Assembly: GCF_904849725.1 (NCBI RefSeq)
Contig: NC_058518.1
Location: 210,502,741-210,566,740, forward strand
Source: Hordeum vulgare subsp. vulgare
Taxonomy: Eukaryota; Streptophyta; Magnoliopsida; Poales; Poaceae
Length of the DNA stretch: 64,000 bases
Reading direction: 5' to 3'
Positions 450 to 52,720 of the stretch are shown in pieces. The notes beneath the pieces are model-generated. The model did not search any database, was not told the DNA's origin, and worked only from the letters and a program-made list of their open reading frames with translations. The stretch's first letter is position 1, and each line of letters starts with the position of its first letter. The position numbers and the translations under genes were made by a program.

Positions 450-2067
450 TGATGACGAGTTGATGGATATACTTCTCGCCCCTTGTTGGTTACCCCAAGT
501 GGAAGGTGGAGATGCAGTCCGCAACAGATTTCCCTTACACGGGGACTGTAAGGTTTATCGAACCAGGAGGACTCCAAGGATCAACAAGTAGGTGTTCGCT
601 GCTCTGGCGCTAGCAGAAGACGTGGACCTGCACACACAACAAATAACTTTGCTCCTAACGAGTTCAGAGAGGTAATGAACATGTAGAATAGCGATAGTGA
701 TTGCAACGGAAAAGTAAATAAAAGCAGTAAATGGTGGAGGTGTAAAAAATGGTGGTAATATGGACCAGAGTCCCATGATGTTCACTAGTGATGTTTCTCT
801 CCCAAAAGACGATAAACAACTATGTCGGGTAAACAAATTAGAGTTGGGCAATTGACAGAATTATAAATGCACCGCAATGCTCATCATGCTACTAGAAAGA
901 TAGAGGCTCAAAAGTAATGGGAAGTACGCCAATACAAGTAGATCGTTTATCCATCAGCAGCTATTCTCTGATCATCAACCTTCAGATATCTATCCATAAC
1001 ATCTCGCTGGTATTAAGTTGCGAGCCCCACCCAAAGTCTAAAGTCAAAGCAACGGACAACTACTTTAACGAACTTTGCCTAAGGTAAACAATCCTTGCAA
1101 CCCTAGTCACAAGCACCGTTGTTTTCTCCCTCATGGAAACAAAACATCCCCTAGTCTGATGTTTCTATCACTCAAGCTAGACGTTAGGGGGCATGGACCC
1201 ACATTCATGCATAATGCTCCCTCTTGGCATTACAATCTACTACTCGGCCAAAGCAATAAAGATCAACGGAGAACATGCATGAATTACTCAAGAACATAAT
1301 ATACAAGGAGAACCAAATATATAACTCATCACAATCTGAACGTAATCTCATAATCCATCGGATCCCGGCAAACCAAGCATAGCAACAAGAGGTAAATTAC
1401 ATATATGTCTTGATCATGTAGGGCAGCTCACCAGGGCTAAGCATTGAAGCACAAGATTGGAGATAAGACATCACATAGCTACTGCTCATGGACTCATGGT
1501 CCAGGGAGGACTTCTCACCAACGTGCGAGAAGCGTCCATGGTGGTGGAGAAGCTCCCGGAGGTCAATCCTCACTCCGGCAGGGTGCCGGGAAGAGGTCTT
1601 CCGGCACTTCCGATCTTGGAAGCACTGCGGCGGCAGAATAGTGGAGAAATTCGCGATTATGGATCTGTTGTTAGGATTTTCTCTCAGATAGGTAAATATA
1701 GGCCAAAGGAGGGCACCAGAGGAGGTGGTCCCCACCCAGGCGTCCTGGTGGTGTGGCTAGGAGGTGGCTCGCACAGGGTGGCCACATAGGCGAGCCCTGG
1801 CTCCCCTCTGTCCCCACTGGATGCCTCGTGAAGCTTCCGTCACGCTGATATTATATATTTTTCTTGGAATTTTTGGGGCTGTGTAAATTGGGGTAAAAGT
1901 CCGTGCAAAAAAGAAATCAGCAGACAGAAATTAGCACCGGATGCACTGGGTTGGTAGGTTAGTCCAAATATGTGTAAAAAGGTACGAAAGTGTAGCAAAA
2001 CATATAACAATGTCACCCAAAAGATCACGGAACAAACACAAATTATAAATACGTTTGGGACGTATTA
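450..2067 (-). repeat. 5' LTR (about 1.6 kb) of the gag-bearing element
   Basis: On the minus strand it begins TAATACGTCCCAAACG (canonical TGATACGTC with one change) at 2067 and ends in TCA at 450. The start matches a very common Triticeae LTR class, which has a GACGTATCA-like inverted terminus. No coding capacity: the open frames at 1397-1789 are antisense shadows in a GC-rich stretch that probably holds the LTR promoter and leader. Positions from about 774 to 2067 recur inverted at 51429-52720. Positions 450-773 are not repeated there. The family name is not assigned. Confidence 0.75.
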
Positions 2068-2243
2068 GAAAGGCAACGATCATGAAGCCGAAGGACCACA
2101 TGATCCACAACTAACAGATGCCCCATGGCGTCTTCAAAGTTTGTGTGGCCGGTGTGAAAATGGGCATCAGGGATTAGCCTCTTCCGACACCACTCGATGA
2201 TGATGAGACCCCTAAGCACATTGGCGCATGCAAGACCTGGATC

Positions 2244-3327
2244 TTGCCTTGGCCGAAGACTCACCTTTGTGTCGAGACGCCGAATAGAACATCAACGACA
2301 ACTCCTCATCAAGTTATAAACACCACCCCAATTACCCAATTACATGCACCTGTCTTGGCGGGTGATATCGATCGACGCGACGAGGGAGAGCCTCCATTAG
2401 TGCCAGCTGACATCGCCCCCGTCAAAGAAGAAAATGTTGATGATGTCATGGAGGAGGATGCTGATGACCCTAACCAGTATATCAATACTGGCTACGATGA
2501 TGCTCGGGTGTATGCCTCAGGCTATGAGCATGGAGATGACTTGATGATGCCTGAACTGCCGGACCGCAACGTCCTACGAGTGATTGCAAAAAGCTCTCTT
2601 CATGCGATCCTCGTAGGAGACACCTCCAGATGCCGCCTCTACCCAGTAAGAACAACACGGGGGTCGTCCCCTGGTAATTCGCCCGACGACGCTGGGGGTG
2701 GTGGTTACGGAGGGTATGGTGGGCTCACTACCGCCACCTGCCAAGAAGCGAAGCAGTAGACCGGAGAAGAAAGAATCTAAAGGAGCGAGAGGTGCTTCAA
2801 GCAGTGACCCGCCTCTAAAGCCCCCGGAGGTAGACAGAGTACCTGTCGTAGGTGCGGATTGTTTCCATGTCGCTGGCAACCCGATCCTAGCTCAGATAGC
2901 GCTAGAGAACATACAGAACAATGATCTAAGGATACTTTGTGATGGTATGTTGGCCATAGAGAGAAGACTTGTCAACACGGAAAAACTAGGATTCTACGAG
3001 CTTTACCCGGCTCGGGTTCCGGGTGCGATGTCATACGTCGACAGACGGCCCGCGGATAAGTTCATCGTGTGATTTGACTACGTCTACGACATGTTCCACA
3101 TGACCAACCTATATTTTCAGTTCATCCTCATGTATGCGTTGTATCTCAACTACATCATCAGATGCGAGAACATAGAATATATCTGCGTCACGGAACCATA
3201 CTATATGCACGAGAGCTTCTTGGCAGTCTTCAAAGAGCACCGTGACTATGCGAGCAAGTACATTGGCGATTTCATGATCGCTAATAAGGACAAGGAAACG
3301 ATTCTCCTGCCTTATCATCCCACGTAA
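2244..3327 (+). pseudogene. CACTA-associated protein, N-terminal part (acidic region plus unnamed domain)
   Basis: Three frames join into one product. Positions 2244-2759 start MPWPKTHLCV and contain an acidic block (ENVDDVMEEDADDPNQYI). From about 2698 the frame is shifted by one and carries a basic linker (KKRSSRPEKKESKGARG), then VDRVPVVGADCF and a region to 3072. An in-frame TGA at 3070-3072 interrupts it, and 3073-3327 continues as FDYVYDMFHM to LLPYHPT. In the mirror copy the codon at the TGA is sense (ILPFDYVYD), so the stop is a left-arm mutation. A GTAAGT donor follows HPT at about 3325, so the Ulp1-like part probably begins in the next exon. The acidic segment is typical of the second ORF of Triticeae CACTA elements; its function is unknown. 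Confidence 0.6.
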
Positions 3328-3403
3328 GTCATCCGCGGATATCCTCTCATAAGTTTTGATCATTTCTTTGCAAGCATTGAGGCAAATTTGAGATGCACCT
3401 ATT

Positions 3404-4000
3404 TTGCGTAGTGGGGGAGGGGGCGTCCTCATCTGTCTGTACCCACAATACTCCCATGCTCTGTACTTGGACTCGTCGAAGAACACCGAGAAAAAGGATT
3501 ACACACACATAAAAAGTGTTCCCAATAGTGCCTTCATAGCCTTCAACCTTACTAGTGGATATATCAAGGTGAAAAAGTACAGGAATCAACCGCCGGCTTT
3601 TGGCCATAAGACCGACTTCTCGTGCATCCAGCAACTTCACACTAGTAAGGATGATGGATGCTACCTCATGCATCACATGATCGAGTATAGAAGGGATAAT
3701 CAATGCCTTTGCATGTCATCTAATTTCGGCGATATCGAGATTGTCAATTGGGTCACAAGCATAGGAACGACACCGGATCATCTAATCTGAGCTGAGTTTT
3801 ATCACATACAATGTGAACTTGCCCAAGTGATCGTGAAACAGGTCGTCGAACAAGGAGGGATGTTCTTCCATGGGCCAATGAGGTGGGAGAATGTCCGAGA
3901 ACTGCTACGCCCTTAGCGTCTGGACCTAAAGCCTTTCAACCAGCTCGGGTCATTCATCCCTGATTATGAGGATTGGGGCGCCGACATGGAGGAGTGATTA
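3404..4000 (+). pseudogene. Ulp1-type (C48-like) cysteine protease domain of a CACTA element
   Basis: Positions 3404-3790 encode LICLYPQYSHALYLDSSKN, then GYIKVKKYRN, then CIQQLHTSKDDGCYLMHHM. The aspartate of YLDS and the cysteine of DDGCYL fit the catalytic Asp and Cys of Ulp1/SENP-like proteases, and a Gln precedes the Cys segment. After a TGA at 3788-3790 the same frame goes on recognisably (AEFYHIQCELAQVIVKQVV), and it reaches an acidic tail after another stop near 3917. A TGA closes the frame at about 3999. Such domains are common passengers in plant CACTA and Mutator elements; activity on SUMO-like substrates is not established. At least two stops make this copy non-functional. The right-arm counterpart is truncated at about residue VVEHG. 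Confidence 0.68.
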
Positions 4001-4214
4001 ACGATGACAATGTGTGTTTATAATTATTACTAACGGCTTTCTATGAACTAGCGTATACATCGGTCTAGTTAATTAGATTGTGTATGAGGAACTTCGTTAT
4101 TTATGTTTAGTGCTTGTATTCTGCTAACTATGCCTCTTCGTGTTTCTCAAGTACATTATGTTGCATATTATATATCGTTGTTAATCAACTTACGATGCAT
4201 GTACATATAGACCG

Positions 4215-4560
4215 GAGATGGCGAAGGGCTGCTACGCGTATTCATTGGAAGGGTTCCAGGAGTGTACGACCACTCGCCAGATGCTCAGGCGTAGGCGAAC
4301 AGGTACCCGGGCGCTGGCCACGGAGGGTTCGACAGCAGAGCCGAATCGGAAATTAGTATCTTGAGGTGGATGCTATGGCAAGATACAGAGCGAAACTGGT
4401 GCCTCAAGAAGTACTGCATAGTCGCGCTCTTGCTCATGTTGATCGCTCTTCTCTTCTACATGATGATTTAGATAGTGATGATGAAACTTTTGGGTGTGCC
4501 ATCACATGCGTGTATCGCTATTTTCGAGATTTGATGATATTTGTGGGGGATAACAATATA
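4215..4560 (+). pseudogene. Viroplasmin / RNase H1 N-terminal-like small ORF with membrane tail
   Basis: An ATG at 4218 opens MAKGCYAY. With a one-base shift the sequence reads VFIGRVPGVYDHSPDAQA, which resembles the RNase H1 N-terminal hybrid-binding fold shared with caulimovirus viroplasmin (GRxPGVYxxWxxAxxQV, then FDSRAE). A stop and frameshifts follow. Around 4370-4470 the text reads like a short C-terminal transmembrane tail. Small ORFs of this kind follow the Ulp1-like gene in many Triticeae CACTA elements, by recollection. This copy is dead. Confidence 0.5.
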
Positions 4561-4939
4561 TGTGTTGGATAATGTTGATGATGGTATAAATGACGAGACT
4601 ACTTTATGTGTATGATATGATGAGAATAATGCATGTTTATTATGATACGATGAAACTAATGTTTAGAGCATGCACAAGTACGTAGAGGAGGCATAAATAC
4701 GACGGGAATTAAATATTGAAAGCAGGAATATTAGCAGTAGCGCTGGAATATTAGCCGTAGCGCTGGCTTAGCATTAGCGCTTTATTTATTCCAGCGTTGC
4801 TGCTAACGTAGATACGAGTAGCGCTTTAAACCCAGTTCTACTACTAACAGGTTTGCCGTAGCGCGTTAGAGGTAGCGCTGACCCCAACGCTACTGGTAAG
4901 GGAAAAACCAGCGCTACTAGTAGGCTTTCTCCTAGTAGT
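4561..4939. repeat. CACTA subterminal repeat array and terminus
   Basis: From about 4730 the motif GTAGCGCT / AGCGCTAC recurs at least eight times in both orientations, with spacing of roughly 20-40 bp. It ends in CAGCGCTACTAGTAGG and a TCCTAGTAG terminus at about 4939. Arrays like this bind the CACTA-encoded TnpA-type protein. Positions 4561-4729 are AT-rich with no feature seen. Confidence 0.65.
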
Positions 4940-5500
4940 CCAAGGTCACCTTGCTGTTCTCAAATGCAAATGCCTTGGTTGCTGAGAAGACTCAAAACAA
5001 CCTAGGAGCGCAATAGATTTCCACAAGGGTCCATCACGTGCAGGTTTTGTCATACAGATGCTGAAATCGTTCAGGGAAAATAGCTATAACAAAGAACTTA
5101 ATGTTTCATAACTTAGCTTTTCTTCGTTATACGTCTTGTCGTAAAATGATCAACCTTGAACACCGTTCGCGTATTCATACCATCACCTCCCCGGGGAAGA
5201 CTTGCATGCAAGAGCCCGTTCTATCCTTTGAGAAAAAGAAAGAAGAGAAAAGAGGGGTTTACGAACCTTGCTAGTTCAACAATCATTTCACCCAAGATAT
5301 CGTGATCACAACATTTCATACAATATACATAATTTAAATATCTACTTTGACAAAAATTTGCAGAACAATTAGCTTTTCTGATTATCATAGGTTCTTCTCA
5401 TGGCTTTGTACAAAGGTTTACATGCCTTGTCGACAAACTCCTACAAAAGGGGATTGCCAAGGGTCCTGTAGCAACTACGCCTCATGGGTGGAATTTGTGA
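4940..5500 (-). other. 3' flank of Tat-lineage Gypsy pol, non-coding
   Basis: This stretch lies between the CACTA terminus and the integrase C-terminus. I see no coding region here. A purine-rich run lies at 5231-5256. It is plausibly the start of the long 3' non-coding region of the Gypsy element, cut by the CACTA element. Confidence 0.4.
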
Positions 5501-6657
5501 AGAAGCTCAATATTCTAGGAGTTCAACAATAGAGTGCCATCTTCGGCCTCCACGAGGATTATGCCATGCCTCGTGACTCGTACCACCCGGTAAGGGCCTT
5601 CCCATTTTGGCGTCAACTTGTTTGATCCATTCACGGAATGGATTCGTCAAATAACAAGGTCGCATTCCTCAACTCTTCTCGCATGCACTTTGCGTCTATG
5701 ATAGCGGCACAAAGGTTGCTGGTACCAAGTGGCATGCAAGGCAGCCCAAAGACGATGTTCCTATAAGATCATGGCAACATTTTGCCATAGTTTCTCTTGC
5801 TCGTCTTCCTCGAAGGCTTGCACTCGAGGTGATCAGTATGTGAGTTATGTAAGGTGCACAGCTTCTGCAACATAAACCAGGAAGAAGGGTGTCTCGCCGC
5901 TGGCTCAATTTTGTGTCGTTGTGAGTGACCAAAGAACCACCGACAGCTCATCAATCCAATAACTTCCGCACTTGTGCAGCTTGTCGAATGTCCTTGTCTT
6001 GAGGACACACAACACTTCAGCATGCACTCTCTCTACCTAGCCATTGCTTCTAGGGTGAGCAGCTGATGCAAAGCAAATTATGGCACCAACATCGTGATAA
6101 TACTGCATGAAGGTGCCCCTTGTGAACTATGTGCCATTGTAAGTGATGATCGTGTTGGGGCCACCAAAACGGCAGTTTATTCATTTAAAAAGCTTGACGA
6201 CTACTTGTGTTGTTACCTTTCTCTCTCGCTCTACCTCATTCCACATTATGAACTTGTTGATTGAAATGAACTAGAACTCAGAGTCCCTAGTAACACGAGG
6301 AAAGGGTCGACGATGTGAATCCCCGAGATCGAGAAAGGCTAGGAGAGCGGTATGGTTTGAAGGGCTTGTAATGGCTAATGAATTTTCTTGGCGTGGAAAT
6401 GGCATGCTTCACATCTCCTTACCATCGCCAAGGTATCTTGAAGGGTTGTAGGCCAGTAGAAATCAAGACGGAGGGCCTTGCCAACAAGCACACGACAGCC
6501 GATATGGTAACCGCACATCCCTCCATGTATTTTTGCCAACAACTTTTGTCCATCTTCCCAATAGATACACTTCAATTTCACCCCATTTGGCCTTCTCTTG
6601 TAGAGAGTGTTTTCTACAAACTGTTACATGCTTGATTGTCGGCCTACTCTTTCAACT
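5500..6657 (-). pseudogene. Tat-lineage Gypsy integrase (zinc-binding, core and C-terminal parts)
   Basis: On the minus strand, 6581-6375 encodes LLAKIHGGMCGYHIGCR, LVGKALRLDFYWPTTL and RRCEACHFHAKKIH. This is the integrase HHCC zinc-binding segment, with the paired Cys of CEAC. The core (about 6340-5760) is heavily decayed by stops and shifts. At about 5610-5520 the text PKWEGPYRVVRVTRHG and LLLNS marks the integrase C-terminal region. The continuation upstream (protease, RT, RNase H) is at 14833-17610 because an 8.2-kb CACTA element sits between 6657 and 14833. The right arm has lost this segment. Confidence 0.8.
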
Positions 6658-7140
6658 CACTACAAGAAATATGTCAACCCGTGACCTTCAATATTGGTCA
6701 CTGAATGGCCATTGTTTTCCATTTATGACCTTTTTGTGACCAAAATGGGTTGCTCAAAAGATGACCGTCTCTAATGAACTATAACGACCTTTCTTCTGGA
6801 ATGGTCATAGACATTTACGACTAAACGAAAAGGTCGTTGGTCCTACGACCAATTGTTTTGAGCATTAGTTGTCTGCCTAGGGCATGTCGGATCCAACATC
6901 GCATGCCGACGAGGCAAAGTTACGACCAATTGGATTGGTCGTTGATAAGAATCAGCCTGGTCCAGTTCGGTATTTTACATGGGCTGAGCCCACTAATTCA
7001 GCCCATTTATATTTTTTCGTGCCAATTGGACAGTTTCACGAGCCAACCGTATAATTCAGCCTTTTTATTTTTTCAGCCATGGCCTTTTTTGACCAACAAT
7101 TTTAGTTCTCTTTTTTTATAAAATGGGTCCACTAGTCAAA
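6658..7140. repeat. CACTA left terminus and subterminal repeats
   Basis: After the terminal inverted repeat, motifs of the type ACGACC, GGTCGT, TGACC and GGTCA recur densely to about 6960 in both orientations, the signature of TnpA-type binding arrays. The far end (14570-14832) carries the same motifs. This set differs from the AGCGCTAC motif of the neighbouring CACTA element, so the two belong to different families. Confidence 0.75.
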
Positions 7141-7254
7141 TAGGTCCACCTTGTCACGTTCTAATAAGTGGGTCCCAGCTATTAGGCTTAGATTCTTCGT
7201 ATTTTAATTTGCAATAAGAAAATAACCAGTATTTCAATTGGCAAGCAAAAAACA

Positions 7255-7400
7255 TAATACAAGGTGTAAAATGAATCAATACAAGCTCTACAAGTGACAC
7301 AGAATACAAGTTGTACTTTACAAGCTCTACAAGTGTAATAACTACATACATGCTCTACAAGTATGGGAATCACGGTTACAAGCTCTACAAGTGTTCTCTT
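7255..7400. repeat. Short irregular tandem repeat, ACAAGCTCTACAAGTG
   Basis: A 16-bp unit ACAAGCTCTACAAGTG or a close variant occurs near 7282, 7319, 7348 and 7379, spaced 29-37 bp apart. It lies in the AT-rich CACTA interior and is not coding. Confidence 0.7.
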
Positions 7401-8880
7401 CTTCAGCATGGAGCTCCTTCGATGGCGATCAAAGGCCGACGTCACTTGAGGGCCATAGTCAGGGCTGGGACTTCCATGGTCATCCTATTACATAATCAGC
7501 TGAGAAGAATTAGAAAAATCGGAGCCAATATATTATGAACATTCCTTTCAAAAAACAAAATATATCCTAGACACGTTATGGACAGCCACCAAGGAAAATC
7601 AATAAACAAAAAGATCAGCGTATCAACACATTTCCATGGATGGATGGGATTGTCTAATGTACTACTTTTCTTAAATGTGCATGATGTAGTACTAGAAAGG
7701 AGATTTACTAGTGATCCATACATAGGGAATCTGCATGCGTATTTGTGCAGGATTGGGTCACAATATGGAATAGATGTTTGCAAGTGAACATGATATTTAA
7801 TTATTATTTTCTATAAACAATAGAGTTAATTCGGACTACCCTGCATTTTTTTAATGTGCACTATAAAAAAGACTTTTTGGATACAACCGCAAGAAAAAAA
7901 GATAATTCTTTGATTTAATATTTAAAATATTTTTTAAAGTACATAATTTATATACTAAGTGTTTTCTAACTTCAATTTGGACCTATATAATGCAAAAAAA
8001 TATTTCTTAGATTCCATAATGACCTATGGAAACACTTTTGCACTGATTTTTTTGAAATAGCATATATAAACCACATTGTATTCTCAAGCCTACGACATTA
8101 GATATCTTAAATTATTATTTCGAAGAACTGGGAAAATGTGATTTCTATGTCGACCAAGATGCAGCATAAAAAAGACATTAAATGATAATGAGCAATTTTA
8201 GGTATGCAAATGTGTGACATCCATGTGCACATCTCGAAGACTAAAATTCACATAATTTTAATGTTTTGTAACCATCTAATTCGTCGACAATAAAGAATCA
8301 ACTTAAACTATTCTGAAAGGGCATAACTATATTTTTGAATTACCGCTCAACAATAACCAATCCTAATTACATCAAATTGATAAAGGTAACTGAGACAAAA
8401 TGATTTTTCAGAGTAGAACCGATGCTCAAGACTTACAAGCAACTACCAAGCCTAACGGCTTCAATAAAGAAATTCAGGTGCAACATAAAAGATATCCTCA
8501 GCGTTGCAAAGTTAGAAACCCACAACAACTACCTAACACTAGCAGCAACCGGTGGAATAAATCTACACAAACCTAGACAAAGGAACAAGACCAGCACCAA
8601 TAGCATCTCGGACCTTCCGGTGCAGCAGCTCCTTCATCTCAGAATCATAATTCTTAGTGTCAAACTGGGAACCTTCCGATGCCATTCCTGCCATGGCTAT
8701 AGCAGAAATAACATACGTTAGCTCAAACAAGCAACATGAAAAGAGAGGTGAAACAAAACATGTACAAGATTAGTTAACCATAAAGTACATTGTCGTATAC
8801 AAAGATAACATCAACAAGATGGTAAGAGAGAAAAAACATCTCACACTACTCCATATTACATGTCTATTTTGATGTGGAAA
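7401..8880. other. AT-rich CACTA interior, nothing recognised
   Basis: I found no coding region, conserved domain or long repeat here. Open frames are short and show no family motif. Everything left of about 8822 has no counterpart in the right arm. Confidence 0.5.
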
Positions 8881-9970
8881 GTAGCACCTGAACAGGTCTA
8901 TTTCTGAGCGACAACACACACAGCAATGGACTACCACTCTTGTGTGAATGGTGATACGAAAGGAAACGATGGGTGGACAGTTAGTTTAGCAAAGATAAGT
9001 GGATACCCATTATAGTCCAGCATGTTCAGGTGTACCAAATCCTTCAATCAGCATATGGGATATATGACAGGAGAGAGTTCATCCAAACACAATTAAAGAA
9101 TTTGAAGCATTCTATCTAACAAGATGGAAAAACAAGATGGAAACAAAGCACACATATGCCACAATGGAGACCCGTGATGCCATCATTTACTCTCAGCACC
9201 GCAGGGAGAGCCATTCATACATAGTGCAAGCATGATTCAGTATTCCCTGGTGCAGCAGAAAAAACATGGTGCCCAGCCACATACATAATCACTAACCAAC
9301 AAGTACTTTCTTGTCTGGCACCATTTTGTGGTGTGGCCTGCAACACCAGCATACGTCGGCCAACGAAGTGAACCAACCATCCAGTAGGAATGGATCGAGA
9401 GCAAAAAGAAAAGATGGTTTTATTTTACAGGTGAAAATAACACACATGAGGTCGGACCTCCCAAAAAAAATAATATAGGAGTACATGTCAAGCTCTCGTA
9501 GTGTCTGTATGTGTGTGTGCAACAAGTAGGGAGAGAACAAAGGATTGCTCGGTCTTGCAAGCAACATCCGACCAACCAACAAGCTCCTTATTTGTCCGGC
9601 ATAGGAGCCGATGAGCCAGCCGGCAAAGGAAATCGACACTCCAACATGAACTCGAAGCATTTGAGGACAACATTAGAACGACTTCATTGCACTAATCACA
9701 GTTTGACAAACGAAGGAGGGAATTAATCCTCTCGTGGCACCAACTTCTAATGCTAATCAAGCAAGCGATGATTTTTTTTGCACACACATGGCGACATGGG
9801 AAGGGAAGTATCAGCTCAGAACTCAGCTGTGTTGCTGCAAAATGAGGCCCTAGACGACCCAGATCCACCCAATCCGCCCAAAAGGACCCGCATGCATAGA
9901 TCGGACTGGCGCGGTAGCAACGACGAGGAAGAGAAGCGAGAGACGACACCGAGGGAGGGAGAGGGATTAC
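8881..9970 (-). other. Captured gene segment, probable intron and downstream part
   Basis: It follows the exon-like fragment at 9994-10560 on the minus strand. The sequence after the conserved peptide reads CACCTTGTAATCCC, with a GT that could be a splice donor. The next kilobase is T-rich and non-coding in appearance, with a CTGGTGTTGCAGGCC acceptor-like site near 9337 (TTGCAG/GCC). The mirror copy at 48501-49600 keeps the same text. Intron identity is inferred from these splice-like sites only. Confidence 0.45.
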
Positions 9971-9993
9971 AAGGTGGGCGAGGAGCGCGTGGA

Positions 9994-10560
9994 TCCCGGG
10001 CGGACGTGCGCAGGCTCCATGCGGTCGAAGGGTTGGAAGTCAAAGTAGGTGAGCGGCGGGTTGATGATGTTGTCTCCGTATGCCACGGAGTTGGAGACAG
10101 CGGTGGATTAGGCGGAGTAGGCAGGTGTGGCGGAAGGGAATATGGTCGGGGCTGGGGGAGGAGGAGGCGGGGGACGACATAGGGACCTGCCGGCGAGGTG
10201 AGAAAGCTTTGGCTGGGTTGTGGTGGATCTCCCTCCCTTGTGTTCTTCTCTCCTTTCTGCTGATGGGAAGGGATGGGATGGGAGGGGAGGGGAGTGTACG
10301 GGAGGAGGAGGGCACGGAGGAGGCCATGTGCGGAGTGATGAGCTCCATGAGGGGAGGCGATGGGAGGACAGAGCACGGGAGGAGGGAGGAAGGAGAAGAG
10401 AGGAAGAAAGGAGGCAGGGGGTGGATGGAAAATGTGAGGAGGACAAAGCTACGTTCTTGGCTAGAGAGGTGCGGGCAGCCGTTGGATCCGGGATCATCCA
10501 ACGGTCTTTGATGCATAATCCGTCTGAGATACCCATGAACCAATTAAAACGCAATTAATA
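9994..10560 (-). pseudogene. Captured exon-1-like fragment of an oligopeptidase A (M3)-like host gene
   Basis: On the minus strand the frame reads GDNIINPPLTYFDFQPFD, then RMEPAHVRPG. The mirror copy is nearer the source: NPLLADFDFQPFDRIEP, then VHVRPG. Plant oligopeptidase A/thimet oligopeptidase-like proteins have NPLLxDFxFPPFDxVEPxHVRPGIxALL near the N-terminus, as I recall. Here the frame breaks right after HVRPG; restoring one A would give IHALLA. The same break is in both arms, so it predates the duplication. Upstream is GC-rich, Pro/Ser-coding-looking sequence, perhaps 5' UTR and transit-peptide region. It lies inside a CACTA element with no other host-like DNA. No metal-binding HEXXH segment is present. 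Confidence 0.62.
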
Positions 10561-11040
10561 CTATGAAGACGTTATGACCATCTAAATTGGTCTTAATTTA
10601 TTGAAAATAAGTTTTTTTCAGAGGAAAAACAATTTCTATTTTGAGTGACAAAGATGGTTGTTTTGTGAAGGATCTTGTTGACACCTGATTTTTTCACGGA
10701 AGGTAACATTATTATTATTGATTCAACTGAAGAAGTGCTCTACATGAAAAAGTTTTGCAGTGTTGACATGAACATCGTTGAAGTTTGTGTCATCACGGTA
10801 CAATTTCATGTCGAAGGCCGATCCACACGGCCCAAGTGGCGATCAGGTCGACATAGGGCAGCCCATAGCTGCGTCGCGCTCCTACGAGGTCCCTCCCTGG
10901 CATGTGGGGGTTCAGGTCCTCAAAAGAATCCATCGAACTGCTTACGGACCGCGCTTCCTGTCAGGTCTCCTTCGGAGTGAGCTGTGGTGCATCACCCTTG
11001 GCGTCGATGGTACACGGTGACATGTTCGCATATGGTCTAA
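10561..11040. other. CACTA interior between captured fragment and tandem repeats
   Basis: It includes a GC-richer patch at about 10810-11020 that is also conserved in the right arm (47445-47680). Its open frames are short, overlap on both strands and match no family I know. It may be another captured piece, but I cannot name a source. Confidence 0.35.
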
Positions 11041-14569: not shown

Positions 14570-14832
14570 GATGATGTGGCACCTAGTCATAGCTATGACC
14601 ATCTATATTGGTCATAATTAGCTAGAAATTAGGCAGCGAACCAGGGCTATCTGCTTTACGACCATTTCTCATAAGGAAATTATGACCTTTTTTATCAAAT
14701 TGGTCGTTATGGTTTGGGGATGGAGCCTCCCGAACAGCTTACGACCAATTTTTCTCAATTTGTCGTAGATTTACGACCATTTCAGCCAGGGTCACTGCGA
14801 GAAGTTCACTAGTTGACATATTTCTTGTAGTG
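14570..14832. repeat. CACTA right terminus and subterminal repeats
   Basis: It contains several GACCAT, GGTCGT and TACGACC motifs and ends in the terminal inverted repeat TTGACATATTTCTTGTAGTG at 14832. Confidence 0.85.
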
Positions 14833-17610: not shown

Positions 17611-17629
17611 GGAAAACAAAGCTAAGAAC

Positions 17630-24032: not shown

Positions 24033-24044
24033 GACCTATCCCCC

Positions 24045-28978: not shown

Positions 28979-28996
28979 TATTACTCTCGAAGACTC
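28971..28996. repeat. Centre of the giant palindrome
   Basis: GAGTCTTC (28971-28978) pairs with GAAGACTC (28989-28996), leaving a 10-bp unpaired spacer at 28979-28988. The spacer continues the right-hand LTR text (TTACTCTC is also found in the intact LTR at about 56521-56528), so the left copy begins at 28978. Confidence 0.95.
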
Positions 28997-32507: not shown

Positions 32508-32522
32508 TGTCCTGATACCACT

Positions 32523-34150: not shown

Positions 34151-34162
34151 GGGGGATAGGTC

Positions 34163-40580: not shown

Positions 40581-40599
40581 TAAATGTTGTATATTGTTA

Positions 40600-43361
40600 G
40601 TGGTTTTGATACAAATGCAGTACAACTTTTCCTACTATTTAAAAGGTCAAAGTAAGATACCACAACCTTACAATGGTATCATGGGTCGTTCGACGGTAGC
40701 AAAATTCATCGCAGCTTCCCAATATGCCTACGATACTCTGAAGATGCCAGGGCTGATGAGCGTCATCACCATCCATACCAACAGCAAAAGCGTTAGCCTC
40801 TACGCCAACAAGCTCTACTAGGAGGCAGTCACAACATCTGCCGATAGGGCACTGCTCCTGTCGACCAAGATTTCGGGGAGAAGAAGATCAAGACTACCAA
40901 CAATACCTCTCGCAAGGACTCCGGGAAGTGCACAATGGATAGCGGCACGCCCGCCAAGGACATAGCTAAGAGCTCTCTCGCAAGGAGAAATAAGATCAAA
41001 GTGGCAAGCCCAATACGGAGCAAGTGGATGCACGTGAGGATGACAAGGATGGCACTTTTACCATAGGTGACACCCTCAACAATAAATAGGAAAGTGAGCT
41101 CATCTCCTTCTTGCGGGGGAATGTCAATGTGTTTTCTTGGAAACCATCTGACATCCTCGGTGTTCCGAGAGAGATGGTGGAGCACCACCTTTCTGTCTGG
41201 CCTCATGCACATGCCATCAAGCATAAGGTCAAGAAGGAAGATCTAGACTGGGAAGAGTTGATTGTCGAAGAGATCAAGAAACTAGAAGCGACAGACTTAA
41301 TCAGGGAGTGATCCGCCGAACTTGGTTGGCGAGCCCAGTGGTAGTTAGGAAGGCAAACGGAAAGTGGAGGCTATGTATCGAATTTACTGATATAAATAAA
41401 CCTTGTCCAAAAGATCCCTTTCTTTTGACGTGCATTGATCAAATAGTGGACTCCACCGTCGGCTGCAGTGTACTCTCCTTCCTTGATGCTTACTGTCATT
41501 ATCTTGAGGCCTTCATGATGAGGGAAGAGAAAGAGAAAACCACATTTATTACTCCGTGTGGAACATACTTCTTTAAGCATATGCCTTTCAGACTAAGAAG
41601 TGTTATCTTAACATTTGCAAGAGCTAACAAATTGGTTTTTAGCCCGATATGCACAAAAATGTGGAAGCATATATAGCTGATATAATGGTCAAGACAAAAC
41701 ACAAGGCCAAATTGATTCAAAGACCTACAAGAGACTTTGGCAACTTGCGCAAGATCAATTTGAAGCTCAATCCTGTGAAGTGCGTGTTTGGAATTCCATC
41801 CAGCAAGCTCCTCGGGTTCTTAGTGTCCTAGCACAGTATTGAAGCCAATCCTGCTGAGAACGAAGCAACTAAGCAGTTGGAGGTACTGAAGGGCGTCAAT
41901 GATGTGCACCGCTTGGCAGGTTGTATTTCCGCCCTCGGTATGTTCATTTCTAAGTGTGTAGAATGCACACCATCGTTTTTCAAGATTTTGAAAGAGGAAG
42001 GTCCAATGAAATGGACTCCGGAAGAAGAGACAATGCTCCAAGATGTGAAAAACTACCTATCTTCGATGCTAGTACTACTTGCGCCTATGCCCCAAGAGCC
42101 TTTGATGCTATATTTTTTAGCAACCAATCAAGTGGTTAGTGCTGCACTTGTGGCGGAGAGAGAAGCTAAGGAAAAAGAGGTAGAAACTCCAAAGATGACA
42201 GCTGGCACGCAAGATTTATCTCTGGAAATCCTAGGTGCCGCAAATACAAATACACCACAAGACGAAAATCAACAAGTTGTGCAGAAGAAGAAGATGGTGC
42301 ACCGCCGAGTATATTTTGTCAGCTCTCTTCTGCAGGGGGCTAGGTTACGCTATTCTGGCATGCAAAATTTGCTTTTCGGCCTCCTCATTGCCTCCCGGAA
42401 GTTGCGCCATTAATTTCAAGAACACCAGATCACCCTCGTCACTCACTTTCCATACAACACATCTTGTGGAATCCAGAAGCCACCAATAGGATTGTTGATT
42501 TGGCGTTGGAGCTGGCCAGCTTTGATAAAAGTTTTGAAAGCACAACAACTACCCAAAGGACAACCTTGGCGAAATTCATTACCGAATGGACACCTATGCA
42601 AGACGAGAAATTACAAAAACATACCTCCCTGATAAGGAAACAACTTAAGAGTGGATTATGTACTTTACGAATCCTTTTCACTGCAAGGCACCGATGGCCG
42701 GCATGCTGCTTGTCGCACGCACCGGAGAGTTCCTCAAGTAGATGACCCAAATGCACTTTCCCAGGGAGCTATCAACAAATAAAACTGCTGAATACGAAAG
42801 ACCGCTTATCGGCCTACGAATTATGGTTTATCTTGGCATCAAGAATCTAATTTTTCGAGGAGGTTCATAGCTTGTTGTACGTGAAGTAAACAGGGATTAT
42901 AAGAGCCTTTTGATGGAAGCTTATGTCGATAAAGTAAAAAAGTTGGAAGAGAACTTTGACGGTCTCCAAACGGAGCATGTTCCTCATTCTGAAAACAACA
43001 TTCCTAATGACTTGTCAAAACATTTTGTTTAGAAGCTGCATGTGTAACCTGTGACTTTTGTTGTCCAACAGACTCAGCCATCTATCACACCATCAGGCAA
43101 TTCAAGAAGAGAAAATTAATTCTTGTGACTAATTTCTGGCGCAGCTACCAACCATTCCCAACAAAGTTGCCGAAAAAAGACATTGCTTGCGGGTGAGCAG
43201 CAAACTCCGACAGGATATCAAGTACTTGACATTGAAGCCAACGCTCCCACGGCGAAAGATATGCGTTTAATCCTTGTCATTGAGCCACAAGCTCCAGCGT
43301 GGACACAACATATAATCCAATATCTTTAGACAACAGAACTTATAGAAGGGCAAGAAGAAGC
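40600..43361 (+). pseudogene. Tat-lineage Gypsy polyprotein, mirror copy up to the CACTA insertion
   Basis: Protease tail at about 40670-40820 (YNGIMGRSTVAKFIAASQYA). RT start at 41111-41311 (VPREMVEHHL). RT core at 41308-41676 (WLASPVVVRKANGKWRLCIE, FITPCGTYFFKHMPF). Degraded YxDD as YIADIMVKTK near 41660-41700. RNase H at 41877-42413 (KWTPEEETMLQDVKNYL, LIASRKLRH). Linker at 42870-43360. It ends AAGAAGAAGC directly at the CACTA terminus. The integrase is missing because of the right-arm deletion. Confidence 0.85.
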
Positions 43362-45289
43362 CACTACAAGAAATATGTCAACTAGTGAACTTCTCGAAGT
43401 GACCCTGGCTGAAATGGTCATAAATCTACGACCATTTGAGACAAATTGGTCGTAAGCTGTTTGAGAGGCTCCATCCCCAAAGCATAACGACCAATTTGAT
43501 CAAAAAAGGTCATAATTTCCTTATGAGAAATGGTTGTAAAGCAGATAGCCCTGGTTCGTTGCCTAATTTCTAGCTAATTATGACCAATATAGATGGTCAT
43601 AGCTATGACTAGGCGCCAGATCATCAGTTTTGCCTATGTGTTATGTCTATGTGTCAATCTTTTCCCTAGTTTGTGAAGCAACCTACTATTCTATCATTCC
43701 CTAAATTCTCCAAAAATTCTCATAAATCCTTTGGATGATATATTACTCAAATATGTCAAAGCCCTTCCTTCCCTAGTTCGAAAATAATTTAGAAATATTC
43801 ATTTTCCTATTCTGTTTTGAATAGCACTTTGTGAAGGAGGTGCTATTTGTATTTTCTTGATTGCCCTCAAACATTTTGGGCACTCTTGCCTATCCAAATC
43901 ATTGCCTCATGAAAAACTTCAGCTCCATTTGCCTAGTAAATATTTCTCAGCATATTTCCGAAGTTTGTGTTTAGCTAGAAGCTTTGTAAAGGTATTACTA
44001 GGTAGGGATATCCTAATGAGTTGAATTTTTCTCACGTCTTCTATATGCCCAAACCATAACTCTCCACAAAATTTGAGCCACATCTAACAATCCATGTGAG
44101 CTCATCTTTGTTTCTGGTAATATTTTCAGTTTCTGAAGCAAGTACATTTTATATTACTTTATAGTTGATGAAAATTTATCACGACATGAAACTAAACATA
44201 GAACCTCCCTCCACCAAATTTTAGCTCAATTAATTTGGACAATTTCCCTCAATATTTTTCCCAATCTTCTATTAAGTGGAGAGCATTGTGAAGGAAGTAT
44301 AATTTTTTATTTATCCAAGTTTTATGAAATTTTTACACTGCCTTAATGTGCCCAAATTATCATCCTCCTCCAAATTGCAGCTCAATCCAATCATCTATGT
44401 GAGCCCAGTTTCAATTAGCATTTTGTGCCGAAATTGGCACATTTCAAATCAAGTGCTATCTATACCCCTCCTATTGCCCTCAAACTATTTGGGACATATT
44501 CCATATCCAAATCTTTGTCACATACAAAATTCAGCTCTATTTTCCTAGTAAATATTCCTCAGGGAATTTCCAAAGTTTCTATCCACAGAGAAACTTTGTG
44601 AAGGAAGTACTAGCTAGGTTTATTCAAATGATCTGAGATTTTTCCAAATCTTCCACATGCTCAAATCATCAGTCTCCACCAAATTTTAGCTAATTTCATT
44701 TTTCCAATTCCTGTCAATAATTTCCCAAATTTTTTGTCCATGGAAGAGAATTGTGAAGTAAGTGTCACTTTGGCATGTCCAAATGGTATAACATATTAAA
44801 GTGCTTTCCTATGCCCAATCGAACATCATCCACCAAATTTCAGCTTAATCCATTCATTCATTTGAGCCCAGCTTCAACATCCGTAGTTCCTCCCAGTGTG
44901 GCACTTTGCAAAGGAAATGCCACCTAGGATCATCAATTTGAGCTAAAGTTTTTCCAAGAAACTCTCCTTAGTGGATGATCATCCTCAGCCAAAATTTAGG
45001 CCCATTGTCCATGTGCATTTCCCCCACCGCTAATCAAAAACTTGGCTGCTAATTCATATTTGAGCTTAGTTCAGTCTCCTTGTAAGATTCTTTTATTGTA
45101 TTCTTATTACTAACACCTACCGAGGGAGTGTCCAACCCACCAGACATGCCTAGTCCACCCAGAACTTGTGGGAACTCCACGGTCAGGCGGTGAGCACGCG
45201 GGCTGGCATGCTAGTTTACGCGCTCTGGAGTTGGGGCCATCGCCCATCATCCAAACCTCGACGTCTCTCCACCACACAATGTATTTATG

Positions 45290-47440
45290 ATTAAATAGAT
45301 ACTAATGCACCTAGAAATGATTTTTGAAAAAAATAAAGAGCAAGCTATAAGGCAGATATTGTTCAAACTTGACCCACTTCTACCTTAATCAGCGGAAAAT
45401 TGTCTTTTTGATGAGAGGTTGATAAAAAAATTTAACACCCAACCATTTGGTCAATTGTACATTAAATATGGCCTAGTATTTTAGAAAATTGATTTGCTAC
45501 AATTTTGCAACATATATATGGTATGTCCTTCACAAAAAAACTCTTTTTGGGCACTCGAAAAATGGAAAATGAATTTTTCGTCCAAAGAAAATTAAGACTT
45601 CCTTATTTAACATTGTTTGCCATTACATTATTCACCCTTGTGCATAATATTATATCATTTCAAAAAACTATTCCATGAATGCTGCCATAAGATTGATCAT
45701 TTCGCGTGAAAGCCATGAATCTTCACACATGATAGGTCATTTTGAGAAGACTTTTTTTAATTATTGTCGTATTACAAGTTTATTATATTACCTAGTAACT
45801 TGGTCACATATATTGACACAATGCGAAGGTTTTCCAATAAATTATTTTAAACTTTTCATGCCCATTTCAAAATGCGGTCAAAACGACGGGTATGACCGTT
45901 CCTAGCTAGTGGTTGAATCTTGGAAAAGTTCTGGTGTTTCTATGATGAAATAGGTACTTGTGTACATAAAAATGATTTTTGGAAAAAATAAAGAACAAAC
46001 TATAAGGCAGCTACAGTTCAAATTTGACCAGCTTCCAACTAAATCGACAAAAAATTGTCTTCTTAAGAAGAGTTGGAAAAAAGCTTTTGACACCAAACCA
46101 TTTGTTCAATTGTACATTGAATATGGCCTAATATTTTAGAAAAAATGCTTGGTCCAATTTTTTTAAAAAATATATGGTATGTCCTGCACAAAAAACATAT
46201 TTTGGGCACTCAAAAAATGGAAAATGAATTTTTCATCAAAAGAAAATGAAACTTCCTTAGTCAACATTGTTTGCCATTACAATATTTACCCTTGTGCATA
46301 ATATTAGATTATTACAACAAACAATACCATGAATGTCGCCATAAGATTGATCATTTGGCTTGAAAGCCACGAGTCTTCACACATGATAACTCATTTCTGG
46401 GAACACTTTTTTTAAATAATTTCCATATTACAAGTATATTATTTTTCCTGGTAACTTTGTCACATATAATGACACAATGCGAAGGTTTTGCAATTATTTT
46501 TTATTTTTCATGGCCATTTCAGAATGCACTCAAAATGGCAGGTATCACCGTTCCTAGCTAGTGGTTGAACCTTGGAAAACATTTTGTGTTTCTCTGATTA
46601 AATAGATACTTTTGTACGTCAAAATGGTTTTTGGAAAAAATAGAAATCAAACTATAAGGCAACTGCGGTTCAAATTTGACCCGCTTCCAACTGAATCGAC
46701 GAATTTTTTTCTTTTTCACAGGAGGTGGATAGAAGATTTTGACACACAACCATTTGGTCAAGTGTATATTGAATATGGCATAGTATTTTAGAAAAATGAT
46801 TTGGTCCAATTTTGCAACAAATATATGGTAGGTCCTTCTCAAAAAACTCATTTTGGGCACTCGAAACATGGAAAGTGAATTTGTCGACCAAAGAAAATGA
46901 AAACATCCTTAGGCAACAATGTTTTCCATTGTAAGATGAAAATGGAAAAGGATTTTTTGTCCAAAGAAGATGAAGATTGGTCATTTGACTTGAAAGCCAT
47001 GAATCTTCACACATGATAGCTCATTTGTGAGAACACTTTTTTAAAATAATTGTCGTATTACAAGTTTATTATTTTTCTTCTTAACTTGGTCACATATAAT
47101 GACACAGTGCGAAGGTTTTCCATTTTTTGATTTTGTTCATGAGCATTTCAAAATGCGGTCAAAACAATGGGCATGACCGGTCCTAACTAGTGGTTGAATC
47201 TTGGAAAACTTTTAGTGTTTCTCTCATTAAATAGATACTTATGTACCTAGAAATGAGATTTGAGAAAAATAAAAAGAAATCTATGAGGCAGCTATAGTTC
47301 AAATTTGACTCGCTTTCAATTGAATCGGAGGAAATTTGTCTTTGGAACGAGAGGTGGATGGAAAGATTTTGACAACAATTTGTTTGGTTAATTGGACATA
47401 AAATGGCACCACACCATTTTTAGAAATCATTAGACCATAT
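45290..47440. repeat. Tandem repeat of about 600-655 bp, mirror copy
   Basis: Copies of the CCAACCATTTGGTCAA-type block lie at about 45440, 46095, 46745 and 47385. This mirrors 11041-13145 without change in copy number. Confidence 0.78.
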
Positions 47441-47914
47441 GAAACATGTCACCGTGTACCATCGACGCCGAGGGTGATGCACCACAGCTCACTCCGAAGG
47501 AGACCCGACCGGAAGCGCACTCCGTAAGCAGTTCGACGGATGCTTTTGAGGACCTGAAACCCCACATGCCAGGGAGGAACCCCGTAGGAGCGCGGCGCGA
47601 CTATGGGCTGCCCTATGTCGACCTGATCGCCACTTGGGCCTTGTGGATCGGCCTTCGAGATGAAATTGTACGGTGATGACACAAACTTCAACGATGTTCA
47701 TGTGAACACTGCAAAACTTTTTCATGTAGAGCACTTCTTCAATTGGATCAATAATAATAATAATGTTACCTTCCGTGCAAAAATTAGGTGTCAACAAGAA
47801 CCTTCACAAAACAACCATCTTTGTCACTCAAAATAGAAATTATTTTTCTTGTGAAAAAAGTTATTTTCAATAAATTAAGACCGATTGAGATGGTCATAAC
47901 GTCTTCATAGTATT

Positions 47915-48500
47915 TATTGCATTTTGATTGGTTCATGGGGATCTCAGACGGATCATGCATCAAAGACCGTCGGATGATCCCGGATCCAACGACAGCCCAC
48001 ACCTCTCAAGCCAAGAACCTAGCTTTGTCCTCCTCACATTTTCCATCCACCCCCTGCCTCCTTTCTTCCTCTCTTCTCCTTCCTCCCTTCGTCCCATGGT
48101 CTGTCCTCCCATCGCCTCCCCTCATGGAGCTCACCACTCCGCACATGGCCTCCCCCGTGCACTCCTCCTCCCGTACACTCCCCTCCCCTCCCATCCCATC
48201 CCTTCCCATCAGCAGAAAGGAGAGAACAACACAAGGGAGGGAGATCCACCACAACCCAGCCAGAGCTTTCTCACCTCGCCGGCAGGTCCCTATGTCGTCC
48301 CCCGCCCCCTCCTCCCCCAGCCCCGACCATATTCCCTTCCGCCTCACCCGCCTGCTACGCCTACTCCACCGCTGTCTCCAACTCCATGGCATACGGCGAC
48401 AACATCATCAACCCGCTGCTCGCCGACTTTGACTTCCAGCCCTTCGACCGCATCGAGCCTGTGCACGTCCGCCCGGGATCCACGCGCTCCTTGCCCACCC
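47915..48500 (+). pseudogene. Captured oligopeptidase A-like exon fragment, mirror copy
   Basis: The better preserved copy. Positions 48386-48478 read MAYGDNIINPLLADFDF, then QPFDRIEPVHVRPG, close to the N-terminal motif of plant oligopeptidase A-like M3 peptidases. The frame is lost after HVRPG by the same one-base gap as on the left. Upstream, 47915-48385, is C-rich 5'-UTR or transit-peptide-like sequence. Overlapping Pro/Ser-rich frames on both strands are shadows. A GT at 48502 may be a captured splice donor. Confidence 0.62.
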
Positions 48501-49630
48501 CGTAATCCCTCTCCCTCCCTCGGTGTCGTATCTCACTTCTCTTCGTCGCCGTCGCTGCCGCGCCCGTCCGATCTATGCATGCGGGTGCTTTTGGGCGGAT
48601 TGGGTGGATCTGGGTCGGTCTAGGGCCTCATCCTGCGGCAAGACCGCCAAGTTCTGAGCTGATACTTCCCTTCCCTTGTCTCCATGCGTGTGCAAAAAAA
48701 ACCATCGCTTGCTTGATTAGCATTAGACGTTGGTGCCACGAGAGGATTACTTCCCTCCTCCGTTTGTCAAACTATGATTGGTGCAATGAAGTCATTCTAA
48801 TCTTGTCCTCAAATGCTTCGAGTTCATGTTGGAGTGTCGATTGCCTTTCCTGGCTGGCTCATCGGCTCCTATGCCGGACAAAAAGGAGCTTGTTGGTTGG
48901 TCGGATGTTGCTTGCAAGCCCGAGCAATCCTTTGTTCTCTCCCTACTTGTTGCACAAACACATACAGACAGTCCGAGAGCTTGACATGTATTCCTATATT
49001 ATAGTTTTTGGGAGGACCGACCTCATGTGGGTTATTTTCACCTGGAAAATAAAACCATCTTTTCTTTCTGCTCTCGATCCATTCCTACTGGATGGTTGGT
49101 TCACTTCGTTGGCCGACGTATGCTGGTGCTGCAGGCCACACCATAAAATGTTGCCAGACAAGCAAGTACTTGTTGGTTAGTGATTATGTATGTGGCTGGG
49201 CACCATGTTTTTTCTGTTGTGCCAGGGAATACTAAATCATGCTTGCACTATGTATGAATGGCTCTCCCTGCGGTGCTGACAGTAAATGATGGCATCACGG
49301 GTCTCCATTGTGGCATATGTGTGCTTTGTTTCCATCTTGTTAGATAGAATGCTCCAAATTCTTTAATTGTGTTTGGATGAACTCTCTCCTGTCATATATC
49401 ACATATGCTGATTGATGGATTTGGTACACCTGAACGTGCTGGACTGTAATGGGTATCCACTTATCTTGGCTAAACTAACTGTCCACCCATCGTTTATTTT
49501 CGTTTCACCATTCACACGAGAGTGGTAGTCCATTGTTGTGTGTGTTGTCGCTTAGAAATAGACCTGTTCGGGTGCTACTTTCCACATCAAAATAGACATG
49601 TAATATGGAGTAGTGTGAGATGTTTTCTCT
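48501..49630 (+). other. Captured gene segment, probable intron, mirror copy
   Basis: The counterpart of 8881-9970. T-rich with an acceptor-like GCTGCAGGCC at about 49128-49137. Positions 48575-49180 happen to be open, but show no family resemblance and are broken in the left copy. Confidence 0.45.
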
Positions 49631-49933
49631 CTCTTGACAACCATGTTCGACGACCTGCTTCACGATCACTTGGGTAAGTTCACACTGTATGTGATAAAAC
49701 TCAGACCAGATTAGATGATCCGGTGTCGTTCCTATGCTTGTGGCCCAATTGACAATCTTGATATCGTCGGAATTAGATGACATGCAAAGGCATTGATTAT
49801 CCCTTCTATACTCGATCATGTGATGCATGAGGTAGCACCCATCATCCTTACTAGTGTGAATTTGCTGGATGCACCACAAGTCGGTCTTATGGCCAAAAGC
49901 TGGCGGTTGATTCGTGTACTTTTTCACCTTCAT
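49505..49933 (-). pseudogene. Chimeric ORF: Ulp1-like protease tail fused to CACTA interior
   Basis: On the minus strand it starts MKVKKYTNQPPAFGHKTD and contains WCIQQIHTSKDDGCYLMHHM with the presumed catalytic Cys. It then crosses the deletion junction after VIVKQVVEHG and ends with about 47 codons of the other CACTA element, including HVYFDVESSTRTG. The stop that ends the left copy (TGA after TPDHLI) is TGG here, so the frame stays open. Expression is not indicated. Confidence 0.7.
49634..49647. other. Deletion junction joining two CACTA elements
   Basis: Sequence matching left 8826 and above joins sequence matching left 3853 and below. About 4.97 kb is missing. The join shows short shared text (AACA) and a few unmatched bases (about TTGTC), as in end-joining repair. 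Confidence 0.85.
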
Positions 49934-51252
49934 ATATCCACCAGTAAGGTTGAAGGTTATGAAGGCACTATTGAGAACACTTTTTATGTGTGTGTAATCC
50001 TTTTTCTCGGTGTTCTTCTACGAGTCCAAGTATAGAGTATGGGAGTATTGTGGGTACAGACAGATGAGGACGCCCCCTCCCTCGCTGGGCAAAATAGGTG
50101 CACCTCAAATTAGCCTAAATGCTTGCAAAGAAATGATCAAAACTTATGAGAGGGTATCCGCGGATGACTTACGTGGGATGATAAGGCAGGAGAATCATTT
50201 CCTTGTCCTTATTAGCGATCATGAAATCGTCGATGTACTTGCTCGCATAGTCACGGTGCTCTTTGCAGACTGCCAAGAAGCTCTCGTGCATATAGTATGG
50301 TTCCATGACGCAGATATATTCTATGTTCTCGCGCCTGACGATGTAGTTGAGATACAACGCATACATGAGGATGAACTAAAAACCTAGCTTGGTCATGTGG
50401 AACATGTCGTAGACGTAGTCAAATGGCAGGATGAACTTATCCGCGGGCCGTCTGTCGATGTTTGACATCGCACCCGTAACCCGAGCCGGGTAAAGCGGGT
50501 AGAATCCTAGTTTTTCCGTGTTGAGAAGTATTCTCTCTATGGCCAGCAGACCATCACGAACTATCCTTAGATCATTGTTCTGTATGTTCTCTAGTGATAT
50601 CTGAGCTAGGATCGGGTTGCCAGCTACATGGAAACAATCTGCACCTACGACACGTACTCTGTCTACCTCCCGGGGCTTTAGAGGCGGGTCACTGCTTGAA
50701 GAAGCTCTGGCGCCTTTAGATTCTTTCTTCTCCGGTCTACTGCTTCGCTTCTTGGCAGGTGGCGGTAGTGAGCCCGCCATACCTTCCCTAACCACCACCC
50801 CAGCGTCGTCGGGCGAATTACCAGCGGACGACCCCCGTGTTGTTCTTACTGGGTAGAGGCGGCATCTGGAGGTGTCTCCTACGAGGATCGCATGAAGCGC
50901 TCTTTTTGCAATCACTCGTAGGACGTTGCAGCTCTGGCAGTTCACCCATCATCAAGTCATCTCCATGCTCATAGCCCGAGGCATACTCCCGAGCATCATC
51001 GTAGCCAGTATTGATATACTGGTTAGGGTCATCAGCATCCTCCTCCATGACATCATCAACATTTTCTTCTTCGGCGGGGGCAATGTCAGCTGGCACTAAT
51101 GGAGGATCTCCCTCGTCGCGTCGATCGCTATTACCCGCCAAGACAGGTGCATGTAATTGGGTAAGTGGGGTGGTGTTCATAACTTGTTGAGGAGTTGTCG
51201 TTGATGTTCTATTGGGCATCTCGACACAAAGGTGAGTCATCGGCCAAGGCAA
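49934..51252 (-). pseudogene. CACTA-associated protein and protease front part, mirror copy
   Basis: Positions 51252-50818 carry MPWPMTHLCV and the acidic block ENVDDVMEEDADDPNQYI. Positions 50945-50376 continue after a frameshift: VLRVIAKRALHAILVGD, KKRSSRPEKKESKGAR, VDRVRVVGADCF and ILPFDYVYDMF without the left-copy stop. Positions 50366-50169 end LLPYHPT before a GTAAGT donor. The YLDS part of the protease lies at about 50030 in a separate frame. It is less damaged than the left copy but still broken. Confidence 0.6.
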
Positions 51253-51428
51253 GATCCAGGTCTTGCATGCGCCAATCTATTTAGGGGTCTCGTCATTATC
51301 GAGTGGTGTCGGAAGAGGCTAATCCTCGAAGCCTATTTTCACACTGGCCACACAAACTTTGAAGACGCCATGGGGCATCTGTTAGTTGTGGACCATGTGG
51401 TCCTTCGGCTTCATGATCGTTGCCTTTC
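51253..51428 (-). other. CACTA remnant next to the LTR, mirror copy
   Basis: The counterpart of 2068-2243. Conserved between the arms but with no recognisable product. Confidence 0.4.
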
Positions 51429-52720
51429 TGATACGTCCCAAAGATATCTATAATTTGTGTTTGTTCCATGATCTTTGGGGTGACATTGTTATATGTTTTG
51501 CTACACTTTCGTAACTTTTTCACATATTTGGACTAACCTACTAACTCAGTGCATCCAGTGCCAGTTTCTGTGTGCTGATGTCTTTTTTGCAGGGACTTTT
51601 ACCCCAATTTACAGAGCCCCAAAAATTCTGAGAAAAATATATAATATTAGCGTGACGGAAGCTTCACGAGGCATCCAGTGGGGCCAGAGGGGAGCCAGGG
51701 CTCGCCTAGGCGGCCACCCTGCGTGGGGAACCTCCTAGCCGCACCACCAGGCCGCCTGGGTGGGGGCCACCTCCTCTACTGCCCTCCTTTGTCCTATATT
51801 TACCTCTCTGAGAGAAAACCCTAACAGCAGATCCAGAATCGCAAATTTCTCTACCGTTCTGCCGCCGCAGCGCTTCCAAGATCGGAAGCGTCGGAAGACC
51901 TCTTCCAGGCACCCTGCCGGAGTGAGTATTGACCTCCGGGAGCTTCTCCACCACCATGGACGCTTCCCGCACATCCGTGCGTAGTCCTACTTGCACCATG
52001 AGTCCATGAGCAGTAGGTACGTGGTGTCTTCTCTCCAATCTTGTGCTTCAATGCTTAGCCCTGGTGAGCTGCCCTACATGATCAAGGAATATATGTAATT
52101 TACCTGTTGTTGCTATGCTCGGTTTGCTGGGATCCGATGGATTATGAGATTATGTTCAGATTGTGATGAGTTATATATTTGGTTCTCCTTGTATATTATG
52201 TTCTTGAGTAATTCATGCATGTTCTCCGTTGATCTTTATTGCTTTGGCCGAGTAGTAGATTGTAATGCCAACAGGGAGCATTATGCATGAATGTGGGTCC
52301 ATGCCCCCTAATGTCTAGCTTGAGTGATTGAAACATGAGACTAGGGGATGTGTTGTTGCCACGAGGGAGAAAACAATGGTGCTTGTGACCAGGGTTGCAA
52401 GGATTGTTCACCTTATGCAAAGTTCGTTAAAGTAGTTGTCCGTTGGTTTGAGTTTACACTTTGGGTGGGGTCGCACTTAATACCAGCGAGATGTTCTGGA
52501 TAGATATCTCAAGGTGGATGATTAGAGAGTAGCTGCTGATGGATAAACGTTCTACTTGTCTTGGCGTACTTATGATTACTTTTGAGCCTCCAACTTTCTA
52601 GTAGCAGGATTAGCATTGCGGTGCGTTTATAATTATGTCAATTGCCCAGCTGTAATTCGTTTACCCAGCATAATTGTTTATCGTCTTTTGGGAGAGAGAC
52701 ATCACTAGTGAACATCATGG
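51429..52720 (+). repeat. LTR, mirror copy, truncated at the end of the palindrome
   Basis: It begins TGATACGTCCCAAAG at 51429 (intact TG start) and matches 2067 down to about 774. It stops at about 52720 inside the LTR, so the last 320 bp or so (counterpart of 450-773) are missing. Confidence 0.82.

Follow-up and report, generated by a model that had tools for sequence, protein, structure and literature searches.

Mirror arms in the window

The window analysed here is a 64,000-bp stretch of barley DNA (Hordeum vulgare subsp. vulgare, C1:210502741-210566740) on a contig, C1, of 516,505,932 bp that we take to be most likely chromosome 1H of cultivar Morex, in a genome with seven chromosomes; window position w corresponds to chromosome position 210502740 + w. 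It holds the middle of a large palindrome, or inverted segmental duplication, in which two long arms of nested transposons face each other at high identity. Self-comparison of the window showed that 772-28978 mirrors 28989-52721 around a centre at 28983.5, with a spacer of 10 bp (TATTACTCTC, 28979-28988) and 41 bp of perfect stem adjoining it. A first-pass annotation, made from the letters of the window, had proposed this centre and spacer, and both self-comparison and arm alignment confirm them.

Each arm comprises four main mirror blocks within the window, the left ones on the plus strand and their mates on the minus strand. From the centre outward, 25182-28978 pairs with 28989-32789 (Kimura two-parameter distance, K80, 0.0668 over 3,791 sites), 13577-25166 with 32978-44618 (0.0569, 11,548 sites), 8824-13576 with 44848-49635 (0.0580, 4,733 sites), and 772-3852 with 49644-52721 (0.0710, 3,077 sites). 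The arms differ by a 4.97-kb stretch present in the left arm only (3853-8823, an insertion there or a deletion from the right arm, with no clean target duplication seen), a 229-bp stretch in the right arm only (44619-44847), an indel of ~173 bp (188 bp at 32790-32977 on the right against 15 bp at 25167-25181 on the left), and a further indel of 39 bp, close to the sizes given in the first-pass annotation (4.97 kb, 230 bp, 170 bp, and 39 bp).

The centre cuts the long terminal repeat (LTR) of a Ty1/copia family, which we call Y, at about position 748 of 1,422, leaving a half LTR on the minus strand at 28316-28978 (the matching boundary is 28316 or 28317) and another on the plus strand at 28989-29651. 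Family Y encodes a copia reverse transcriptase (RVT_2, Pfam), and both arms retain decayed gypsy-type pol pieces (RT_RNaseH_2, PF17919, at 15411-16376, with a mate at 41832-42410). A Pfam scan of 20 open reading frames returned seven with a match at E<=0.01, four above the curated cut-off (RVT_2, RT_RNaseH_2 twice, and Tf2-1 SH3) and three below it (RVT_1 twice and Chromo); the scanned frames carried transposon domains only, and tRNA and Rfam scans of the window gave zero matches. Tandem units of ~590-660 bp, 75-80% alike, lie at 11033-13146 and, in the mate position, at 45280-47437, and predate the palindrome.

Extent beyond the window

The palindrome had been annotated as 52 kb long, ending at 774 and 52720, and this extent did not hold. 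When the window was compared with itself together with flanks of 100 kb to the left and right (264 kb in total; positions below 1 or above 64000 lie in the flanks), mirror order resumed outside the window and reached -69893, paired with 157829. The leftmost part of the window (1-673, plus strand) belongs to a block, -10359 to 673, that pairs with 75137-86272 (K80 0.0586, 11,002 sites), and past -10359/86272 there are eight more main mirror blocks and two short ones. The mirror order exceeds what chance would give. The best collinear mirror chain in the 264 kb comprised 15 blocks, 88-95% identical and together covering 61.3 kb, with one 5.0-kb block (-27791 to -22793 with 120507-125535) omitted for tandem-repeat overlap. 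The control chain in direct orientation covered 28.1 kb in 10 blocks, five of them Y copies (83-100%) and five short (68-78%). Within the right arm, a stretch of ~4.9 kb (85504-90394) is repeated in direct order at 94350-95221 and 109448-113467, the second copy being split by the element Y_R2; both right copies match one left copy, as in a local direct duplication.

The positions 772/774 and 52720/52721 were rejected as palindrome ends, as they coincide with one border of 22.4 kb of retrotransposon sequence inserted into the right arm. On the left, 772 lies within an element, X, that is present in both arms (LTR at 450-2065, minus strand; other LTR at -6410 to -4780), and because genome copies of X pass uninterrupted through this position, the left boundary lies in ordinary sequence of that element. 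On the right, the sequence past 52721 belongs to a different family, X', truncated there. The right-arm-only insertion (52722-75136, in the window to 64000) consists of X', with LTR remnants at 52726-53945 and 73914-75134, and a nested Y element at 55774-70190 with a copia RVT_2 domain at 62784-63998. Left position 673 pairs with 75137 and left 772 with 52721, and the 98 bp of X between them (674-771) are present in the left arm only, missing from the right at the X' insertion. We also rejected the reading in which the right boundary at X' dates from the duplication itself; X' inserted later, and a small deletion went with it. A 12-bp inverted repeat (CACTAGTGAACA / TGTTCACTAGTG) spans the join between X and X' (52698-52735), where the LTRs of the two elements, ~58% alike, meet at matching LTR positions with opposite orientations.

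Still farther out, we searched the genome (4,214,333,890 bases in 180 contigs) with nine probes, and four of the nine had an inverted partner on C1, in each case among 40 scored candidates. Probe 210429740-210432640 paired with 210678049-210680987 at 94% (next best copy 88% over 2,429 of 2,901), probe 210422790-210425640 with 210685106-210686939 (92%) and 210686994-210687632 (94%), probe 210366900-210369799 with 210698519-210701438 (92%), and probe 210316900-210317799 with 210768003-210768877 (92% over 900; next best 88% over 707). These pairs are consistent in order and orientation, and in each the best non-self match was a single inverted partner on C1, at 92-94% and above all other scored candidates, which, as far as those candidates show, suggests a duplication rather than a triplication. 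The total span is at least 451,978 bp (C1:210316900-210768877), with a left arm of at least 214.8 kb and a right arm of at least 237.1 kb.

The remaining five probes had no mirror partner among their scored candidates: a high-copy repeat of the right flank, an old left Y element, two young high-copy families, and an LTR junction at C1:210285.7 kb, with 40 candidates scored for the last. These may be high-copy or one-arm elements, or may lie beyond the end of the palindrome; no outer end was identified with the nine probes. The right-flank element contains tandemly arrayed repeats of 56 and 70 bp (162758-164000), and 35 of its 40 scored genome copies, itself included, match at least 2,900 bases at 90% identity or more. 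A low-copy repeat, 80-85% like probe 210422790-210425640, occurs twice per arm in mirror order (C1:210369946-210372250 and C1:210696061-210698372).

Divergence and age of the arms

Within the window the arms differ at 5.8% of 23,149 aligned sites (707 transitions and 639 transversions, K80 0.0606), in line with the few-percent divergence noticed at first pass. Identity in 500-bp windows lay between 91.4 and 96.6% and neither rose nor fell toward the centre, and the 15 blocks that include the flanks gave 5.99% mismatches over 65,714 sites. All 16 alignments measured, two of which are alternative right partners for the left stretch near -10354, fall between K80 0.049 and 0.088. At substitution rates of 1.3e-8 and 6.5e-9 per site per year, a K80 of 0.061 would correspond to 2.3 or 4.7 million years (My), which puts the event at roughly 2-5 My ago and fits the order of 1-3 My first suggested. 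Relative to six ordinary Y copies, the left arm carries 17-21 derived sites near the centre and the right arm 12-17, from which neither arm clearly appears to evolve faster.

The nested transposons bracket the event. Because the LTR pair of X has diverged by K80 0.125 in the left arm and 0.110 in the right (whose mate LTR, at 51431-52721, is a truncated one), more than the arms themselves, X is older than the arms and predates the duplication. Five elements found in one arm only have LTR distances of 0.013-0.067; the LTR pair of X' gives K80 0.064 and that of the Y element nested in it 0.030. Two one-arm insertions show 5-bp target duplications together with an empty site in the mate arm. The one-arm insertions are younger than the arms or about the same age, X' and an element Z being about equal to them. 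Because divergence is even across the 16 alignments and the older X is shared, we attribute the arms to one event.

Gene conversion between the arms had been thought weak. At the kilobase scale this stands: 59 one-kb windows had identities of 90.0-96.5%, and none among them showed a conversion tract of that size. Short conversion tracts are possible, long identical runs being mildly more common than a uniform model predicts: 0 of 300 simulations under that model gave a fifth-longest run as long as the 145 bp observed, and 17 of 300 did so when the rate varied per 200 bp. The arms lie below the identity, above about 99%, at which conversion keeps palindromes of the sex-chromosome type.

Origin of the palindrome

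The centre was compared with ordinary genome copies of Y, which read GATGAT|TTACTCTCGAAG at the equivalent position in all six cases. The palindrome centre instead reads CTTC-TA-TTACTCTC-GAAG. The left arm ends at 28978, and right-arm homology to ordinary Y LTRs begins at 28981. From this comparison it follows that the LTR extends 8 bp further in the right arm than in the left (TTACTCTC, ordinary repeat sequence in single copy) and that the 2 bp TA are additional filler, foreign to the usual repeat. An inverted repeat native to the junction was absent from all six ordinary copies, so the palindrome need not have formed through pairing of an inverted repeat already present, and no sign of one is seen.

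Because both arms stop at the same repeat position with almost no spacer between them, we favour the fusion of two slightly differently trimmed copies of one broken end. A break would have occurred inside a Y LTR; after replication, both sister copies of the broken end would have been joined, one of them 8 bp longer and with 2 bp TA added, as in a chromatid-type breakage-fusion-bridge cycle; the resulting bridge would have broken more than 200 kb away, and its far end rejoined the chromosome; later, the arms would have drifted and each gained separate transposons. According to PMC3907307, the key feature of sister (U-type) fusion is that it leaves no single-copy spacer, and the barley centre has 8 bp of single-copy sequence plus 2 bp of filler. 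We put the probability that one inverted duplication, with arms longer than 200 kb, arose by such a fusion at about 0.5.

A possible alternative, to which we give a smaller but appreciable share, is that a stalled fork folded back or switched template across ~10 nt, copied back more than 200 kb, and rejoined, in the manner of microhomology-mediated break-induced replication (MMBIR) or origin-dependent inverted-repeat amplification (ODIRA). Such a switch could leave a short spacer and a 2-bp filler, and palindromes formed by switching at short inverted repeats are described in PMC10766186. Those repeats are interrupted by 40-80 nt, however, whereas the barley spacer is 10 nt and its ordinary copies have no inverted repeat. 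ODIRA also begins from an inverted triplication, and no third copy was seen among the scored candidates of the four partnered probes, although one could have been lost later. Folding back after resection would leave a single-copy loop of at least hundreds of bp with inverted microhomology at its edges, and in the human series of PMC3907307, such spacers measure 766-70,466 bp. A tandem duplication in which one copy was later inverted, or insertion of an inverted duplicate exactly at its own end, would likewise yield two old, equally diverged arms, and we regard it as improbable: another break would have to fall no more than 10 bp from the joint between the copies, and the direct-orientation chain is not of comparable quality. 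An assembly artefact, whether misjoined haplotypes or copies or a false join in gap filling, is very unlikely on this evidence. In its favour, the LTR cut by the centre is present in very many copies (5,983 first-look genome candidates), and gap filling is reported for the MorexV3 assembly (PMC8290290). Against it, the arms are 6% apart, in keeping with the first-pass argument against a chimeric read, and have insertions that they do not share, two of which show target duplications and leave the mate site empty; the 264 kb, window included, contain zero N; and both arms stop within 10 bp of the same repeat position.

The locus may further be read, tentatively and at somewhat under even odds, as a fossil breakage-fusion-bridge product, a sister-chromatid fusion of more than 450 kb that healed into a working autosome and kept its near-spacerless centre for ~2-5 My, in which case long palindromes could be stably inherited in cereal heterochromatin. 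According to PMC10766186, long palindromes whose spacers are short are unstable and seldom found in natural genomes. A palindrome of at least 452 kb whose centre has been kept for millions of years would be a dated natural case of palindrome tolerance in heterochromatin, and would also allow one to ask whether sister fusions heal into heritable chromosomes. We found no description of this locus in the open-access literature, a scope with subscription papers and preprints mostly outside it.

As a large palindromic inverted duplication, the locus is of a known kind; its size, near-spacerless centre, age, and lack of large-scale arm conversion are unusual. ODIRA products (PMC10766186) share a palindromic junction with a short interruption, whereas in barley there are two copies rather than three among the scored candidates and the junction has no native inverted repeat. 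The palindromes of the willow W chromosome, spanning 200 kb (PMC7023750), are likewise large plant palindromes dated by retrotransposons; they contain genes and conversion keeps parts of their arms alike, whereas the barley arms have no kilobase conversion tract and transposon-only scanned frames. Human fold-back inverted duplications (PMC3907307) are similarly large and come from a broken end, but their spacers are much longer than the 10 bp in barley, where no terminal deletion was seen. Products of U-type fusion and breakage-fusion-bridge cycles resemble the barley locus in their mirror arms, in having essentially no single-copy spacer, and in the slight trimming of their ends. The known cases are mostly terminal, experimental, or in tumours, whereas the barley palindrome lies interstitially within a chromosome-scale contig that is otherwise intact, and is apparently millions of years old.
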